This document shows, piece after piece, positions 4,199 through 14,333 of a stretch of DNA of 64,000 nucleotides. Positions within the stretch are counted from its first letter, which is position 1. Every line of letters begins with the position of its first letter. Origin of the DNA: Gemmatimonadaceae bacterium. GTDB taxonomy: Bacteria; Gemmatimonadota; Gemmatimonadetes; Gemmatimonadales; Gemmatimonadaceae. Below the pieces are notes generated by a model. It saw only the letters and a program-made list of their open reading frames with translations. It ran no database searches and was not told where the DNA came from. Both the position numbers and the translations under genes were made by a program. The stretch is taken from NCBI GenBank assembly GCA_016742275.1, contig JACVCD010000008.1, positions 1-64,000 of the forward strand. The letters are read 5' to 3'.

Positions 4199-5860
4199 AT
4201 GATTCGTCGCGCGCTCTTCGTCGTGGGTTCGTTCGTACCGTTCGTGTTGAACGCGCAGGCTCGGGTTCCGGCCGCACCAACAATTCCTGACACCGCGCGT
4301 CTCGCGATTCAGCGCATCCTGGCTCCGCTCAGCAGCAATGACGGACCGGGGTGCGCCGTGGGCATTTCGCGGAATGGCAACCCTGCCTATCTGAACGGAT
4401 TCGGTTCAGCAAATCTCGAAACCAATACGCCGATCACGCCGGGTAGCATTTTTCACGTGGCGTCGGTGTCCAAACAGTTCACGGCTGCATCCATCATGCT
4501 GCTGGTGAGTGACGGCAAGCTTTCGCTCGACGACGATATTCGCAAACACTTGCCGGAGATTCGGAGCTACGGCCCGCCCATCACCATCCGACATCTGTTG
4601 CAGCACACGAGTGGTATGCGGGATCAGTGGTCCTTACTGTCGTTGTCGCGCGGACGCTTCAGCGAGAATCGGATTACCGATGACGATGTGATGGAGATTG
4701 TTGCGCGTCAGCAGGAGCTCAACTTTCCGACGGGAACGCAGTACGAATACAGCAATACGGGATTCACGCTGGCGTCACAGATCGTGAAGCGGGTGAGTGG
4801 TCAGTCGATGCGCGCGTTCGCTGAAGCGCGCATTTTCTCACCGCTTGGCATGCGCAGCACACATTTTCACGACGACTACACGATGCTGGTGCCTGGTCGC
4901 ACATCGGCCTACGAGCGTCGCGCTGATGGCTGGCACGTGAGCATCCCGAATTTCGACACCTACGGGGCGACGAGTCTGTTCACCACCGCTGGTGATCTGC
5001 TTAAGTGGGCCGCCAATCTCGAGAAGCCAGTGGTTGGCACCGCGGCCATGTACGATGAGATGCGACGCAGTGGCGTGTTGACGACTGGAGAAAGCACGGG
5101 CTACGGCCTTGGTCTTTCCGTTGGTCGCTATCGTGGGGCGGCGATTTATGGTCATGGCGGCGCCGACGCAGGCTATCGGGCCAACCTCGATATCGTGCCG
5201 GAGCACGGACTGGCCGTTGCATTGTTGTGCAATGCGGCAAACGCCAATCCAGCCGCTCTGTCACGCAACATCATCGATGTGGTGTTGCGGTCGCAGTTGA
5301 CGTCTCCGCCGCTCACGTCACCGCGTGCAATGTATCGACCATCAGCAGCGGCCATGGATCGTGTGGCCGGATTGTGGATTGAAGGTTTGGTGGGTCGTGC
5401 GCTGTTGTTCAAGCGACGCGACAGCGTGTTGGTCATGGGTACGGCACCCAACGCGCCGGCGCTCATCGCGCTTGATGACAGCACGTACACCGCAGGACCG
5501 GGCGGTACCGAATATCAGTTGCGCACGAATGGCACACTCACCATTCGCAATCCCGGATCGACATTGCCGCCGATTGCTGCGGTGAAGCGTCCCGAGGTCA
5601 CACTCACCGGTACGGCGCTCGCACCCTTCGCCGGGACGTACTACAGCGAAGAATTGGGCAGCACCTATACGGTGACTGCTAGCGACAGCACACTGGTACT
5701 CAAGACGCGATGGGGCAATCCGCTTACGGTTCGCTCAGTCACCACCGATCACTTTATCGGCAACACGATCGTGGTGTTCACTCGCGATGGCCGCGGCCGA
5801 ATCGATGGTATGCGGATTAGTGATCAGCGGTCGCGTCGTGTGCGGTTTGTGCGTCGGTAG
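4199..5860 (+). CDS. Exported serine hydrolase of the class C beta-lactamase / PBP4* fold
   Basis: The 553-residue protein has a signal peptide (cleavage near residue 20, NAQA). The beta-lactamase-like domain spans about 25-370 and carries the catalytic SxxK (S89-V-S-K92), the YxN motif (Y184-S-N186) and a HGG-type third motif in YGHGGADAGY at about 316-325. The C-terminal 170 residues form an extra beta-rich domain often found in this group. Family members hydrolyse D-amino-acid peptides, esters or beta-lactams; the substrate here cannot be read from sequence. It acts in the periplasm or is secreted. Its last 44 nt overlap the 3' end of the convergent HIT gene. A second protein of this superfamily lies at 20856-22034. 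Confidence 0.88.
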   Translation: MIRRALFVVGSFVPFVLNAQARVPAAPTIPDTARLAIQRILAPLSSNDGPGCAVGISRNGNPAYLNGFGSANLETNTPITPGSIFHVASVSKQFTAASIMLLVSDGKLSLDDDIRKHLPEIRSYGPPITIRHLLQHTSGMRDQWSLLSLSRGRFSENRITDDDVMEIVARQQELNFPTGTQYEYSNTGFTLASQIVKRVSGQSMRAFAEARIFSPLGMRSTHFHDDYTMLVPGRTSAYERRADGWHVSIPNFDTYGATSLFTTAGDLLKWAANLEKPVVGTAAMYDEMRRSGVLTTGESTGYGLGLSVGRYRGAAIYGHGGADAGYRANLDIVPEHGLAVALLCNAANANPAALSRNIIDVVLRSQLTSPPLTSPRAMYRPSAAAMDRVAGLWIEGLVGRALLFKRRDSVLVMGTAPNAPALIALDDSTYTAGPGGTEYQLRTNGTLTIRNPGSTLPPIAAVKRPEVTLTGTALAPFAGTYYSEELGSTYTVTASDSTLVLKTRWGNPLTVRSVTTDHFIGNTIVVFTRDGRGRIDGMRISDQRSRRVRFVRR

Positions 5861-6296
5861 ACCTGCTGAGCGCTGCGATCAGTTTTTCGGCCCAGGCGTC
5901 GAGATCCTCACGCGCTGGAAGTGTGGGCGGCTCCGGATAGATCTCCAGCAATCGGTCGCCCATCACGCGAGGATGGATGTGTACATGCAGATGGGGCACT
6001 TCCTGGTTGCCGCCGGCCCCGATGGAGTGCCAGAGGCTCATGCCATCATTCGGGAAGGTGTCGCCCACCGCTCGTGTGAGCTGCTGCACGAGGGTGAAGA
6101 CGTCGACCAGCGTGGCCGCATTGGCTTCGCGGAGGTCATTGATGTGCGAGCGGCTGACGACCAGCACATGGCCCGGATGTGCCTGACGAACATCCATGAA
6201 TGCCACGGCGTGCGCGTTCTGCGCTACAATACTGGCATCGGCCTCGCCGGCCATGATGCGACAGAAAATGCAGGTATGTGTCGTGTCATCCGTCAT
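5817..6296 (-). CDS. HIT-family nucleotide hydrolase/transferase
   Basis: The 159-residue cytoplasmic protein has the histidine triad H102-L-H104-V-H106-I-H108, where H104 is expected to carry the nucleotidyl intermediate. It also has the N-terminal CxFC (C9, C12) seen in zinc-binding HIT proteins and the FMDVRQAHPGHVLV segment typical of the fold. Family members remove AMP or related groups from purine nucleoside phosphoramidates or dinucleoside polyphosphates. It starts at ATG 6296, only 16 nt from the divergent start at 6313, so at least one of the two promoters must lie inside a coding region. The 3' end overlaps the serine hydrolase gene by 44 nt. The C-terminus continues past the usual core with an Ala-rich tail. 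Confidence 0.9.
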   Translation of the reverse strand: MTDDTTHTCIFCRIMAGEADASIVAQNAHAVAFMDVRQAHPGHVLVVSRSHINDLREANAATLVDVFTLVQQLTRAVGDTFPNDGMSLWHSIGAGGNQEVPHLHVHIHPRVMGDRLLEIYPEPPTLPAREDLDAWAEKLIAALSRSTDAQTAHDATADH

Positions 6297-6312
6297 TCGG
6301 AGAACTTACGTC

Positions 6313-6564
6313 ATGCCCAACAGCCTCGACAATCATTCGACGGACACACTGCGGTCCATGCAGTCTCAGTTGATGAAATGGATCATCGGACTGTTGGTGG
6401 TCGATGGTCTCATCGTGGCAGCGTTTGTTCTTCTGTTGGTCATGCGCCCCCGAACCAATGTGCTGCCGCTGGTTCCAGTGTTGTTGATTCCTGGGCTGGT
6501 TCTGGCGCCGTTTCTGTTGCGATTGACGTCAATCAAGAAAGAACTCGCGCGTAGGGGCGCGTAA
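6313..6564 (+). CDS. Small two-helix membrane protein, unknown
   Basis: The 83-residue product has a charged N-terminus and then two membrane segments, about residues 22-44 (WIIGLLVVDGLIVAAFVLLL) and 50-68, joined by a short RPRTN turn. It ends in a basic KKELARRGA tail. I chose ATG 6313 because upstream codons in the frame lie inside the divergent HIT gene and look non-coding. No recognisable domain. It converges on the DUF6265 gene 10 nt away. It may be a small accessory or stress protein; no function is assigned. Confidence 0.65.
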   Translation: MPNSLDNHSTDTLRSMQSQLMKWIIGLLVVDGLIVAAFVLLLVMRPRTNVLPLVPVLLIPGLVLAPFLLRLTSIKKELARRGA

Positions 6565-6574
6565 ACGCGCTGGT

Positions 6575-7057
6575 CTACTGATCGCACACCTTGCGTCGCA
6601 TGGGGATATCCATATCACGCGTGCGGCCATTGGTGACGGCCGAAATGCGTGCGACGATGGAGTCCTTGCTGACGCGGCGATAGGCAATGACCTGCGGGAA
6701 GTCATGCGCGGGATTCTCGAATACCGCGAGTGTGTCCTGAACGGTGGTGGCGGCGAAAGCCGTTTCTGTCTGTCCGCTCGGAATGGCGATGTAGGACAGA
6801 CGTCCATTGACCGGCGCAATGCGCAGCCATTCCCAAGCGCGGGTCGATGGGCCCGTTACTGTGCGGCTCGCGCCATGCATGGTACCTCCTTCAGGTGCCA
6901 TCCACTGTTCTTGAACAGTTCGCGTGGGTGTGCGCTGCTCCCAGCAGCCGGCAAGCCACTTGAGCCGGGCTATGTCGAACGTCGAGGCGCCGGTGCTTTG
7001 CGCTTCAACCAGCGTTGGCGTGGCCAGCAGAACGATCAGGCGAAACAGCGAGCGCAT
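6575..7057 (-). CDS. Exported DUF6265-family protein
   Basis: The 160-residue product starts with a signal peptide (cleavage after VEAQ, near residue 20). The mature part has the DUF6265 hallmarks: the opening LKWLAGCWEQ, then EQWMAPEGGTMHGASRTV, and a barrel-like run of beta strands with SYIAIPSGQ and FENPAHDFPQVIAYRR. The fold is probably a small lipocalin-like barrel that may bind a ligand, but the family has no established activity. It is divergent from the AraC-type gene at 7205, with 147 bp between the starts, so the regulator may control it. Confidence 0.8.
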   Translation of the reverse strand: MRSLFRLIVLLATPTLVEAQSTGASTFDIARLKWLAGCWEQRTPTRTVQEQWMAPEGGTMHGASRTVTGPSTRAWEWLRIAPVNGRLSYIAIPSGQTETAFAATTVQDTLAVFENPAHDFPQVIAYRRVSKDSIVARISAVTNGRTRDMDIPMRRKVCDQ

Positions 7058-8648: not shown

Positions 8649-8678
8649 GGTCGACCGAGTTCTCCTCTCGGGACTTTG

Positions 8679-9965
8679 ATGATGGATCGGCGCCGGGCGT
8701 TGGGCGCAATGAGTGGACTGGTGGCGGCGCCGATGATTTCGGCGCCGCTGTTGTCCACTACATCCGCGGCAACGATCACGGCATTGCCGCAGCCTGGCGC
8801 TTCGTTTCCGCGTACGATGGATTTTTCCATCGAGCCGGGCGCGACGTATCTCAACGCTGCGTATACGCATCCCATTCCCCGCACGTCGGTGGAGGCGGTG
8901 CGTGTCGCTTCGGATTCTCGCGGTTTGATGCGCGGTGCCATGGCCATGCCGGGCAGTACGAATCCCGCTGCTACGCCACGTGCATTGTTTGCGAAACTGA
9001 TCAACGCGAAGGCGGAAGAAATCGCGTACGTGTCGAGCACCAGCGCTGGTGAGAATCTGGTGGTGCGCGCACTGGAACTCGATACCCGCCGCGAAGGCAA
9101 TGTTGTGACCGATGGTTTGCACTTCGAAGGTGCGCTCATGCATCTCGATGTGCTCAAGCGGCGCGGGCTCGATGTGCGTATCGCGCGGCCTACGGCCGAT
9201 GGTCGCATTCTGCTGCGTGATCTCGAACGACTGGTGGACAAGAACACCCGCCTCGTCGAGATCACCGCCACCGCCATGTACAACGGCTTTCAGCATGATC
9301 TCAAAGCCGTGGCCGATCTTGCGCACGCGCATGGTGCGTTGGTGTATGTGGACATCGTGCATGCGGCCGGTGCGGAACCACTCGATGTGCGGGCGAACGG
9401 TATCGATTTCGCAGCATGCTCGAGCTTCAAATGGCTCATGGGGGATTTCGGATTCGGCTTTCTGTATGCCGCCGAACGCACGTGGGATCGTTTGGTGCGA
9501 CCGGTGGTGAGCTACAATCAGGCCGCAACGATTGATCAGGCGGTGCCGCCGTCGTGGACGTCTGCGGAACAGGCGGCTGTGACTTACGAATTCGGGCGCA
9601 GCGCAGCCGCGATATTCGAAGCGGGTTCGCCGGTGGGCAGTGCGCGGGTGGAAAGCGCGCTGGTGGCGCGGTCACTGGCGTACATCGACGCGCTCGGCGT
9701 GGCGCGCATTCAGGCGCATCGCATTCCGCTCATTCGGCGACTGCAGCAGGAAATGCCGCGTTTGGGTTTTGCTCCCATCACGCCGCCCGACGCTACAGGT
9801 GGCATCGTGACATTCGTCCGCGAAGGGCTTGGGGCGAGCAATATCCCCAAGCGGCTCGCCGACGCGCGTATCAATGTGCGCGTGGCGGCGTCATGGATGC
9901 GAATTTCACCGTCGGTCTACAACGACATGCGCGACATCGAGCGATTGCTCGATGTGTTGTCATAA
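8679..9965 (+). CDS. Exported PLP-dependent enzyme, aminotransferase class V fold
   Basis: The product is about 428 residues. A twin-arginine-like signal (MMDRRRALGAMSG followed by an apolar stretch) precedes the mature enzyme. The domain carries the family marks: the opening TYLNAAYTHPIP, STSAGENLVVRAL for cofactor phosphate, VYVDIVHAAGAEPLDV with the Asp that holds the pyridine nitrogen, and SSFKWLMGDFGFGFLY, where the Lys forms the Schiff base. Relatives include isopenicillin-N epimerase-like enzymes, cysteine desulfurases and kynureninases; the exact reaction is not clear. A PLP enzyme with a Tat signal is unusual but makes sense because Tat exports folded, cofactor-loaded proteins. The start is ATG 8679 or 8682. 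Confidence 0.8.
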   Translation: MMDRRRALGAMSGLVAAPMISAPLLSTTSAATITALPQPGASFPRTMDFSIEPGATYLNAAYTHPIPRTSVEAVRVASDSRGLMRGAMAMPGSTNPAATPRALFAKLINAKAEEIAYVSSTSAGENLVVRALELDTRREGNVVTDGLHFEGALMHLDVLKRRGLDVRIARPTADGRILLRDLERLVDKNTRLVEITATAMYNGFQHDLKAVADLAHAHGALVYVDIVHAAGAEPLDVRANGIDFAACSSFKWLMGDFGFGFLYAAERTWDRLVRPVVSYNQAATIDQAVPPSWTSAEQAAVTYEFGRSAAAIFEAGSPVGSARVESALVARSLAYIDALGVARIQAHRIPLIRRLQQEMPRLGFAPITPPDATGGIVTFVREGLGASNIPKRLADARINVRVAASWMRISPSVYNDMRDIERLLDVLS

Positions 9966-9977
9966 TCGCAGAACGCG

Positions 9978-10250
9978 TTACTTGTTGCCTGCGGCCTTCC
10001 ACTCCTCGTACTGCTCGGGCATGCACACGGCGCAGGGGCGGTATCCTGCGGCGATGGCCGTGGTCTCGTCGGCAAAGAACACTCGCTGCTGTTCGTAGCT
10101 ACGGCCGTGCTCCAGGGCGCGGCGTGCCGCCTTGCAGGTGAGCAGTCCATAAATGCGATTCTTGCGATGGCCACCCAGCGTACCCTTGGTGGGGCTGGCA
10201 ATGGTGCTGCCGTCGGCAGAAACGAGGCGGTAGATGTGCGGTGAAGTCAT
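9978..10250 (-). CDS. Small Ada-type zinc-binding domain protein
   Basis: The 90-residue protein resembles the isolated N-terminal metal-binding module of Ada methyl-phosphotriester transferase. It has IYGLLTCKAARRALEHG, a RVFFADETTAIAAGYRPC segment and the paired Cys of CAVC near the end. Only three Cys are visible (one in LTCK, two in CAVC), so the four-Cys site of Ada is incomplete and a His or Arg may complete it, or metal may be lost. Stand-alone versions of this domain are common and have no agreed role; nucleic-acid repair is possible. It converges with the PLP enzyme, the two genes lying 12 nt apart. Confidence 0.75.
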   Translation of the reverse strand: MTSPHIYRLVSADGSTIASPTKGTLGGHRKNRIYGLLTCKAARRALEHGRSYEQQRVFFADETTAIAAGYRPCAVCMPEQYEEWKAAGNK

Positions 10251-10586
10251 CAGTGAACATACTCAAACTGGCAAGCCAAGGTCGACTGTGGACGTCTTAC
10301 CCGACTGTAGCCCGCGGCCAGATGTGCCTCCTGCGGGTGTGGTCCATTCGATCGCACTATTCAAGTGTGGTCTTGTTATCGGCGCTAATGGGTAGTTCGC
10401 AAGAGTGGAACACGCGATTCCAGACTGTAAAGATAGGGAAATTGCCCTATTTACATCTGAATGCTCAGCTGGATTTTGGACATGGTTTAATACGAAATCA
10501 GAATTGGGTCGGCTGGTACAGATCAATTGTTTTCAAGATAGTGATGCTTTCGGTGAAGTGTCGAGCCTTAGATATGGAGATCAGAA
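10251..10586. other. Gene-free stretch at the left end of an AT-rich patch
   Basis: About 336 bp without a convincing gene. Base composition becomes noticeably richer in A and T from about 10400 onward, continuing through the next two genes. Several open frames cross the region but lack codon bias and overlap one another. An imperfect hairpin, ATAGGG...CCCTAT, sits near 10434-10451. A GGAGA ribosome-binding site lies at the right end before ATG 10587. No terminal repeats, attachment site or transposase are seen. Confidence 0.4.
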
Positions 10587-11327
10587 ATGCTCAATCGTTT
10601 CACTCTTATGACCAACACCCTGTTTCTGATGGTGTTGGCACCTGCTGCGTCAGCGCAACCCAAAATACAGTGGACGAAAATATCCAAGCTCGATGGTTCT
10701 GATAGACTCACCACGCAGCCCACATCGAAAGGTATAGCACCGAAGCTTGGCATGGGTGATACCGTGGCGATTCAAGGGCTTGGCGACAGTCCGATACTTG
10801 AGGTTCGCGTAAGCAACACTGTGGTTTTTGAAGGAGTTTGTGCGCACGCCTGTCCATACAATGCTGGCGATGCAATCAAGATTCCATTCAAGGCGTTCTC
10901 AGGTACAGGCGGCGAGGCGGACGTAGAGGTCAAAGTAAAAGCAGGAGCAACAGAGTCTGTTGGCTATTTCGTCTTGCATAAGCGGTGGGAACTGACCTCA
11001 ATGCAGTCGCCGATTCTGTTCTCCTTCAAGAACAGAATCGGTCAATGGCGCTTGGGAGAAGACATTGCACCGTCCTTGTCACCAGTGGGTGTTCGTGTAT
11101 ACCTGCATTCGCTAGGAATATTGAAATATGTAACGCTGGGGACGTTGCTCCAGACAGCGCGTGCTGACGCCGAGTCAGGGCTCGCCGTAAAGATCGGAGG
11201 CTATGTAGACGTCGCTGGGTTCTTACAGATCGCTCATATGCCGGCACAGCACGGTGAGAGGCCGCGCGTGCTGCTTGGATTGAGACCTGAGTTGTTGAAA
11301 AAAATGGTACCGGAGGGCCCCAAGTGA
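10587..11327 (+). CDS. Exported protein of unknown function in AT-rich patch
   Basis: The 246-residue product has a signal peptide cleaved after ASAQ (near residue 24). The mature part looks beta-rich with a Cys pair in GVCAHACPYN around residue 88-97. Two further segments, AIKIPFKAFSGTGGEADVEV and YFVLHKRWELTS, look like an immunoglobulin-like sandwich followed by a second domain. I recognise no family. GGAGA 7 nt before ATG 10587 supports the start. It overlaps the next gene by 4 nt (GTGA), so the two are translationally coupled and probably act together. Codon use (more AGA, AAA, TTT) differs from the surrounding chromosome, suggesting acquisition from elsewhere. Confidence 0.7.
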   Translation: MLNRFTLMTNTLFLMVLAPAASAQPKIQWTKISKLDGSDRLTTQPTSKGIAPKLGMGDTVAIQGLGDSPILEVRVSNTVVFEGVCAHACPYNAGDAIKIPFKAFSGTGGEADVEVKVKAGATESVGYFVLHKRWELTSMQSPILFSFKNRIGQWRLGEDIAPSLSPVGVRVYLHSLGILKYVTLGTLLQTARADAESGLAVKIGGYVDVAGFLQIAHMPAQHGERPRVLLGLRPELLKKMVPEGPK

Positions 11328-12778
11328 ACTCGCGGAGTGTTTGGTCTCTAACGGTTCTGGTTGGTGCACAGCTCAGCATGACAGGGTGTGCGGCTCCGCT
11401 TCGACACGCTTTGGCAAGTGAGTTTGATTCGCACGCGATCTTCGTTGATCGGTTAGGGCAGCCTCATCGCATCGTAAGCAGAGAGTCCAATCATAAACTT
11501 GATGCCAATCTGCACCCACTCGAGTACGAAGGTCAGCTCGGGCGTATGATGGACTCAATCGACCATCATTCTAGCGATACCGTAGTCGTCATCCTGCATG
11601 GAGGACTAAACAATCTGAGAAATCGGCCCAAGGCAACTGAAGCGATTCTTAGAGCATTTAGGGAGACACCCGGTTACTACCCCATCGTTGTTAACTGGAA
11701 CTCAGGTGCCGGTTCCACCTACATCGATCAGAGTGTTCGAGTGCGAAGTGGGCAATACGTCCAGTCAGAAAGCTGGCAAAAACCACTGTTTATAACGATG
11801 AACTCGGCAAGTGACTTGCTGGTGGGGATCGTTGATGCACCGCGGGCTGCCACGAATCGAGCTTTCGAACTCCTGCATGATCGGAGAATGCCTTCGCCGC
11901 CAGCAGACGATGTGTTTGTAGCAGACCATTTGCTCATCGAAATCGGAAAGTCTCGACGCTATGGCTGGAGATCCTTTGGAGCAGACGCGATTGCAGCTGT
12001 AGAGCTTCCGGCCAAGCTGCTAACGGGAATAGTTGTTGAGGGATTCGGCGGTAGGATGTGGCAGAATATGTCCCGCAGAACTCGTCTGGCAGTACGAACC
12101 AAGGACGACTACTGCAGTACTTTCCGGCGCGAACCAGTCGCGCACCAGAATCCCTGTGTTAGGTACATGGAGGAATCAGGTGCCGTCGCGACCTTGTTTG
12201 ATAGCTTGCAGGCGAGAGCGGGGAAGCGAAAAAAGGGGAACGAAATGCATGTGGTTCTTATTGCCCACAGTATGGGAACCATGATTGCGAACAACGTGCT
12301 CAGGATGTCTTTGACGGCGCGGGAAGATGGTAGTCGATCTCTCTTCAGAGAGATTGTGTATATGGCCGCTGCTTCCTCCGTTCGTGATATCGAATCAACG
12401 ATCGTTCCATATATGCAACGCCATGATTCAACGACATTTTCGATGTTGACTCTGCATCCCGGAAATGAATCTCGAGAAGTGAACTATCTCGGATTGATTC
12501 CCAGAGGGTCTTTACTTACCTGGATTGATGCAGGTTTCGAGCGTACGCGCTCCTTCGACGATCGTACCGCTGGACGATTTGCTAACATGACAAGCGCTTT
12601 GACGATCTTCCCAACCGAACTTCGCTCGCGCGTGTCGCTAAAGATGTTCAGTGAGCGTGGATCGAAAATTCCCCAAAAACACGGGCAGTTTATGGATCCA
12701 ACTCTCAGGTTCTGGTTGCCCGCGTTTCGAATGGTTCAGAAGAGCAAGGGAAAGGAGCCTCCGAAGAACCTACGGTAG
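11324..12778 (+). CDS. Lipoprotein with alpha/beta-hydrolase (lipase-like) domain
   Basis: The 484-residue product starts at GTG 11324 and has a lipoprotein signal ending in the lipobox LSMTGC (near residue 22). The body has features of an alpha/beta hydrolase: VVVILHGGLNNLRNRP as the oxyanion-hole strand, YYPIVVNWNSGAG, and a nucleophile elbow VVLIAHSMGTMIAN, whose Ser would be catalytic, followed by EIVYMAAASSV. This resembles DUF900/DUF676-type lipase-like proteins. The catalytic Asp and His cannot be fixed by eye. It is translationally coupled to the exported protein upstream, and both share low-GC codon use. The pair could process or modify an envelope substrate. Substrate unknown. Confidence 0.72.
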   Translation: MNSRSVWSLTVLVGAQLSMTGCAAPLRHALASEFDSHAIFVDRLGQPHRIVSRESNHKLDANLHPLEYEGQLGRMMDSIDHHSSDTVVVILHGGLNNLRNRPKATEAILRAFRETPGYYPIVVNWNSGAGSTYIDQSVRVRSGQYVQSESWQKPLFITMNSASDLLVGIVDAPRAATNRAFELLHDRRMPSPPADDVFVADHLLIEIGKSRRYGWRSFGADAIAAVELPAKLLTGIVVEGFGGRMWQNMSRRTRLAVRTKDDYCSTFRREPVAHQNPCVRYMEESGAVATLFDSLQARAGKRKKGNEMHVVLIAHSMGTMIANNVLRMSLTAREDGSRSLFREIVYMAAASSVRDIESTIVPYMQRHDSTTFSMLTLHPGNESREVNYLGLIPRGSLLTWIDAGFERTRSFDDRTAGRFANMTSALTIFPTELRSRVSLKMFSERGSKIPQKHGQFMDPTLRFWLPAFRMVQKSKGKEPPKNLR

Positions 12779-12779
12779 C

Positions 12780-14333
12780 TCAGACCGCCACCCACAACGC
12801 CGGGACGCCGGGAAGATCGTCACGTACGGCGGAAAGTAGTCCCTGTTTTACCAGGGACGTCGCCACTTCGATGTCCGGGGCGAGATAACGATCCTCGCCG
12901 ACAAACGGCACATGCGCCCGCAGTTCGGCGTGCACCCGCTCGAGCGCCACGGAGCTGGTCAGTGGACGCAGGAAGTCGATGCCCTGCGCGGCGGCCATGA
13001 GCTCGATGCCGAGTATGCAGGCGACGTTGTCGATCATGGGTCCCAAGCGCCGCGCAGCAAAGGTGGCCATGGACACATGGTCTTCCTGATTGGCGCTCGT
13101 GGGCAGACTGTCGACGCTGGCGGGATGCGCGAGGCTCTTGTTTTCGCTCGCCACGCTGGCGGCCGTGACGTGCGCGATCATGAAACCGCTATTGAGACCC
13201 GCATTCGGCGTGAGAAACGCCGGCAAGCGCGAGACCACCGGATCGATCAGCATCGCGATGCGACGTTCAGCAATCGCGCCGACCTCGGCGATGGCCGTGG
13301 CCATGGCGTCAGCGGCCAAGGCCACCGGTTCGGCGTGGAAGTTTCCGCCTGAGACGAGGGTACCGTCTTCGAATACGAGTGGGTTGTCGGTCACGGCATT
13401 GGCTTCGCGCAGCAGCACAAGCGCGGCGTGGCGCAATTGATCGAGACACGCGCCAACCACCTGCGGCTGGCACCGTAGGCAGTATGGATCCTGTACACGA
13501 TCGTCGCCATGCAAATGACTTTCGCGAATGGCGCTGCCGGCGAGCAGCCAGCGATAGTACTGCGCCACGTCGATCTGACCAGGCTGTCCACGCACCGCAT
13601 GAATGCGCGGATCGAATGGTCCATCGCTACCACGTGCGGCATCGACGGTGAGTGCGCCGACTACGAGCGCTGACTCGAGCACGGGTTCAAACGTGAACAG
13701 TGCGTGCAGGGCCAATGCGGTACTGGCCTGTGTGCCGTTGATGAGCGCCAGTCCTTCCTTGGCCTCGAGCGTGAGTGGCGTGAGGCCGTGGTGCACGAGC
13801 GCCGCTGCAGCGGGCACGCGCTCGCCTGATGGGGACAAGCATTCGCCCTCGCCCATCAATGCCAATGCCAGATGCGACAATGGTGCGAGATCGCCGCTGG
13901 CACCGACACTGCCCTGCGACGGGATGTAGGGAATGAATCCGGCGTTGTAAGCCGCCAGAATGCTCTGCACGACCACTGGCCGCACGCCGCTGAATCCGCG
14001 ACCCAGACTCGCCGCCTTGAGTGCGAGCATGAGTCGCACGACAGCGGCGTCCATTGGTGCACCGACGCCGACACTGTGGCTGCGAATGAGATTGCGCTGC
14101 AGCGCCGCAAGATCTGCGGCATCAATACGCGTAGATGCCAGCTTGCCGAAGCCCGTGTTTACGCCATACACCGCGTCTGCGCCGGCCGCGGCGCGTTGCA
14201 CGACGGCAGCGCTGCGTGCAATGGCTTCATGCGCCGCCTGGTCCAACGACAGCGCGACGTTGCCCGCGTGAATGTCCTGCAGCGCTTCGAGCGTGAGGGC
14301 GCCTGGCGAAATCGTGAGTGCAATGCGTGCCAT
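12780..14333 (-). CDS. hutH: Histidine ammonia-lyase
   Basis: The 517-residue cytoplasmic enzyme deaminates L-histidine to trans-urocanate, the first step of histidine utilisation. The Ala-Ser-Gly triad that cyclises to the MIO cofactor is at residues 145-147 within [12 protein letters not shown]. The active-site Tyr of [10 protein letters not shown] is at about 56, and further family blocks are [11 protein letters not shown]-like [15 protein letters not shown] and [14 protein letters not shown]. Length matches the family (about 510). It starts by ATG overlapping the hutU stop by 1 nt (TGATG), so the pair is translationally coupled. It should be repressed by HutC at the shared operator upstream of hutU. 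It converges with the AT-rich lipoprotein gene, 1 nt apart. Confidence 0.97.

Follow-up and report, generated by a model that had tools for sequence, protein, structure and literature searches.

The described proteins closest to the hydrolase analysed here are the DUF900 alpha/beta hydrolases (PF05990), the lipases and phospholipases PLA1 (phospholipase A1), Tle3 and PlaB, and the middle domain of fusion proteins that join an amidase, an alpha/beta hydrolase and a caspase-type peptidase. One report gives the function of DUF900 as unknown and notes that a member of the family may carry a lipoprotein leader (PMC11878206). Here we compare with these systems a locus in a Gemmatimonadaceae bacterium at which a hydrolase gene (B) overlaps the end of a second gene (A). 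"The window" is the whole 64,000-nucleotide stretch of DNA that was analysed, and the features of the locus are collected in Table 1.

Table 1. Features of the A-B locus, in window coordinates
Feature	Coordinates	Strand	Basis or remark
Left flank, small Ada-type metal-binding protein	9978..10250	-	Retained in relatives
Leader between Ada-like gene and A	10251..10586	+	AT-rich; probably non-coding, promoter presumed
Inserted segment	10252..12786	.	52 or 58 bp in its place in two syntenic relatives
Gene A, exported orphan protein (predicted), 246 aa	10587-11327	+	ORF; Sec-type leader
13-bp perfect hairpin, 6-nt loop, within A	11010..11041	+	Inverted-repeat scan
Gene B, lipase-like alpha/beta-hydrolase lipoprotein (predicted), 484 aa, GTG start	11324-12778	+	ORF, profiles, alignment
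Right flank	12780..14333	-	Retained in relatives

DUF900 was the best Pfam match of B, first among several sub-threshold alpha/beta-hydrolase matches, and weak matches to it were found in four of the five aligned B members. For the window copy, however, the match covers residues 304-350 only and scores 17.4 bits against a gathering cut-off of 20.5, and no other family of Pfam, nor any of NCBIfam, passes its own threshold on B. With PLA1, Tle3 and PlaB, B has in common a serine elbow, an HGG motif and a late HG, but it is only 10-14% identical to them, and in B a long insert separates HGG from the serine. When an AlphaFold model of B, itself of low confidence (pLDDT 51), was compared using VIA-align, phospholipase A1, Tle3 and PlaB came top at Z 10.4, 10.3 and 10.2, with many generic esterases close behind at Z 8.5-9.9. 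Foldseek searches using the same low-confidence model gave no match at E<=0.001, and searching the PDB with the sequence of B gave nothing significant. The middle domain of the amidase-hydrolase-caspase proteins (L085, L086) aligned with the B profile at an hhalign probability of 97.1 (E 5.8e-11, 206 columns), with HGGL and GHS common to both; those proteins are fusions of about 940 aa with Amidase_2 and Peptidase_C14 and, read by eye, no lipoprotein leader, whereas B is a stand-alone putative lipoprotein. As judged by these sequence comparisons, B is distantly related both to the DUF900 hydrolases and to this middle domain.

The two fusions (L085:2622-5501 in G012, 959 aa; L086:2316-5117 in G154, 933 aa) both combine Amidase_2, an HGG-type alpha/beta hydrolase and Peptidase_C14, and their caspase part matches the PADLOC family 'caspase'. 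At L086 the next ORF, 5114-6991, overlaps the fusion gene by 4 nt.

The sequence of B has further notable features. Its leader contains a candidate lipobox, read by eye as MTG followed by C22. In a seven-row alignment of B relatives, H92, G93, G94, S316, M317 and G318 are invariant in 7/7 rows, and the conserved Asp402 and Asp413 are invariant in all six rows that reach that far. His453, in the late C-terminal HG, is invariant in 5/5 rows aligned there and has a predicted catalytic role. The nucleophile-elbow motif around Ser316 reads AHSMG in the window copy and GHSMG or GFSMG in relatives; B has both the nucleophile-elbow serine and the late histidine of an alpha/beta hydrolase. The original prediction of a lipase-like lipoprotein is thus supported by the sub-threshold alpha/beta-hydrolase profiles, the lipase-like though low-confidence model and the conserved serine. 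Taken together, the evidence favours a lipase-like alpha/beta hydrolase for B and not a particular substrate.

A shift of base composition and codon use towards A+T had been predicted for this locus, and measurement confirmed both parts. We found that the GC content of 10251-12778 is 0.514, compared with a mean of 0.612 (sd 0.013, minimum 0.577) in 565 windows of 2.5 kb (step 100), none overlapping that interval. Against 43 other genes of the window, chosen by length and codon periodicity, A and B are the strongest outliers and lie outside the whole range for gene GC (0.524 and 0.518 vs 0.615 +/- 0.019), GC3 (0.557 and 0.535 vs 0.693 +/- 0.051) and mean log-likelihood per codon (-1.39 and -1.42 vs -1.09 +/- 0.08, minimum -1.24). 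The change is sharp, with edges near 10251 and 12786, and the fine GC profile falls to 0.40-0.42 at 10401-10600, within the leader. The leader holds one sigma-70-like match on the + strand, with a total no higher than in shuffled sequences, and no Rfam match was found in the patch, leader included. The predicted overlap of the two genes also stands: the 4 nt GTGA are common to the end of A and the start of B.

Comparison of the same locus in relatives revealed an empty site. The Ada-like gene and the right-flank gene, which we take to be histidine ammonia-lyase-like, are 2,535 bp apart in the window vs 52 and 58 bp in G006 and G008 (86% protein identity), the two syntenic genomes, in which the flanks are collinear on both sides. 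The intervening segment is therefore a lineage-specific insert. The right-flank gene itself was found in 28 of 30 genus genomes, and the gene order around it is kept in G006 and G008. A PLP-dependent aminotransferase/desulfurase-like gene of normal composition at 8676-9965, present in 2/29 other genus genomes, is likewise missing here from G006 and G008, which shows that variation of the interval extends beyond the patch.

As originally noted, no integrase and no repeats accompany the insert. Reading its ORFs gave no integrase, transposase or other mobility gene, scanning of its flanks gave neither direct or inverted repeats nor a target-site duplication, and the window contains no tRNA. Neither of the marks by which an integrative mobile element is recognised (an integrase or transposase; att sites or flanking repeats) was found, while both marks of a horizontal segment were: a site empty in 2/2 syntenic relatives and an outlying composition. 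We read the insert as an accessory operon of two genes gained by horizontal transfer, whose products would be a lipase-like hydrolase anchored in the membrane and an exported orphan partner, and give this reading a probability of about 0.62. The earlier view that transfer is likely is supported by both marks and also by the distribution of the genes: none of the 29 other genus genomes has B, and A is missing in all 178 others of the family that were searched.

Gene A begins with a predicted Sec-type leader, read by eye as ending in ASA before Q. No Pfam or NCBIfam family matched it at E<=1, no relative was found in genome contigs or phages, and in the family it occurs in 1/179 genomes, its own. 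The PDB holds no solved relative (best E 3.2). Among 395 phylum genomes there were 13 matches outside its own genome, each short (E 0.0089-0.082), which we take as chance; three of these loci were inspected (L047, L048, L049). A single plasmid match, on panF at E 0.8, was likewise put down to chance. By every search made, then, A is an orphan at the level of sequence. Its single-sequence fold model is useless (pLDDT 33), and beta-amphipathic stretches exceed those in shuffles weakly (fraction 0.028, at a threshold of our own choosing). We found no evidence for the suggestion that A is effector-like. The hairpin within A arose in 0 of 300 first-order simulations of the patch, has a fold z-score of -3.2 and is present once in the genome, allowing up to 3 mismatches; it could slow ribosomes or influence the expression of B.

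To define the B family, we searched 395 phylum genomes by sequence, and 394 class, 178 family and 356 phylum genomes by a five-row profile; these sets overlap, and counts from them are not additive. Six other convincing members were found, 27-33% identical to window B: G154, G155, G197 and G424 by sequence search, G465 and G110 by profile. The profile search of the 356 phylum genomes gave four matches, all of them already seen in the other searches. Within the genus, B occurs in 1/30 genomes, its own. The closest relative is 32.5% identical, and no donor was found; close relatives were absent from genome contigs by pattern scan, from viral contigs by scan and alignment, and from plasmids and phages, and a DNA-level search gave no match in phages or plasmids. 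By eye, a lipoprotein-like N-terminal Cys is present in six of the seven members, all but G465. The B family is, by its sequences, a rare and patchy group of alpha/beta-hydrolase proteins, nearly all of them predicted lipoproteins. The relative in G465 (L084:8008-9561) is disrupted by a frameshift, which means that the gene is dispensable there or that the draft contains an error.

Several matches were left out of the family. They comprise three of the eight matches of the sequence search (G193, G211 and G429; E 0.004-0.007) and short local matches in 17 of 23 class genomes (E 1.8e-7 and weaker). Of those 17 genomes, G012 was inspected, and its match belongs to the amidase-hydrolase-caspase kind, as does a second match in G154. 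The family profile search gave G012 once more and also G023, in which the ORF looks like a generic esterase.

The scatter of B relatives over several families of the class is also consistent with an ancestral pair, with the B family present early in the class, the segment lost from G006 and G008, and AT-richness the result of relaxed selection and not of a foreign source. A tree in which window B and the three same-family copies (G154, G155 and G110) form one clade was not rejected (p-AU 0.171), which leaves room for old vertical inheritance with many losses. Nevertheless, we consider this history rather unlikely. In our tree G154, G155 and G110 form a group that leaves out window B (support 98/98), and none of the 29 other genus genomes has the gene. 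Both genes are intact in spite of being the strongest codon outliers. In addition, the B copies in G154, G155 and G424 match their surroundings in GC, so low GC is not a trait of the B family.

We also examined the neighbourhoods of the B relatives, which differ in every genome inspected. In G155 (L013:4348-12837), a tyrosine recombinase lies 212 bp upstream of the B relative, and HipA-like and HTH genes are close by, as is an ORF that matches HNH weakly. The relative in G197 has HTH and M78 peptidase genes upstream and a divergent beta-lactamase-fold lipoprotein nearby, and that in G424 has a DDE transposase in its vicinity. In G154 a zinc-finger anti-sigma-like gene lies upstream and an LPG-synthase-like gene downstream, and in G465 the neighbours are presumably priA-like and M20-like genes. 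No A-like frame was found near B at any of the six other loci, two of which (G424 and G110) lie on short contigs of about 6 kb. The pair is therefore not a recurring module, and the original idea of a small new module finds no support in the form of a recurring unit or of co-occurrence elsewhere.

Mobile or defence-type genes near some of these relatives (G155, G197, G424) are what one would expect if the pair were a cassette for defence or inter-bacterial competition, in which B would be a lipase that damages membranes or guards the envelope, and A would partner it or confer immunity to it. The related hydrolase domain within amidase-hydrolase-caspase proteins, and the high rank of Tle3/Tli3, a T6SS lipase complex, in the fold comparison of the low-confidence B model, point the same way. 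Set against this, neither gene in the window has a PADLOC or PHROG match (for A, none at E<=0.1), the neighbours change from genome to genome, and generic lipases score at nearly equal Z. Furthermore, B carries a predicted lipoprotein leader, which secreted effectors of that kind are not known to have. We judge such a cassette distinctly unlikely. A misjoin of foreign DNA into the contig during assembly or binning would also give a sharp change of composition, yet it is highly improbable, as the segment lies within a 227,837-bp contig with collinear flanks on both sides, intact ORFs and a clean end at the right junction.

Under the preferred reading, that of an acquired accessory operon, the segment would have been inserted between the Ada-like and histidine ammonia-lyase-like genes. 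Ribosomes ending A would re-initiate at the overlapping GTG, with GGAGGG just upstream, and this would keep the proportion of A to B fixed. Both proteins would be exported by Sec. B would be lipidated at Cys22 and so tethered to the cell envelope; there its putative Ser316-Asp-His453 site may cleave an acyl ester, probably of a lipid. A may be a beta-rich partner, soluble or membrane-associated, that helps B, holds it in check or binds the substrate of B. Weighing against this reading are the lack of mobility marks and of a donor, the clade of four same-family copies that the tree test left standing, the sub-threshold Pfam scores of B and the low confidence of its model. The coupling of A and B, their export, lipidation, catalysis and partnership are all inferred from sequence. 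The role would be accessory, for instance in lipid scavenging or remodelling of envelope lipids. Most likely the insert is ordinary horizontally acquired accessory DNA, and the function of the pair is probably ordinary as well.

Mobility of the B family between bacteria, if real, together with the hydrolase domain that it has in common with the amidase-hydrolase-caspase fusions, would make a lipid-based role in defence or competition conceivable. In that case A would activate, restrain or target the lipid-anchored B, the two would form an undescribed two-part envelope system, and B would perhaps act in lipid-based defence or competition; we regard this as improbable. In the preferred reading, the locus is a clean case of lineage-specific gain, in which an orphan gene and a putative envelope hydrolase can be compared with an empty site. 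It also outlines a rare family of predicted lipoprotein hydrolases, with seven members seen, whose copy in the window falls below every Pfam and NCBIfam cut-off.
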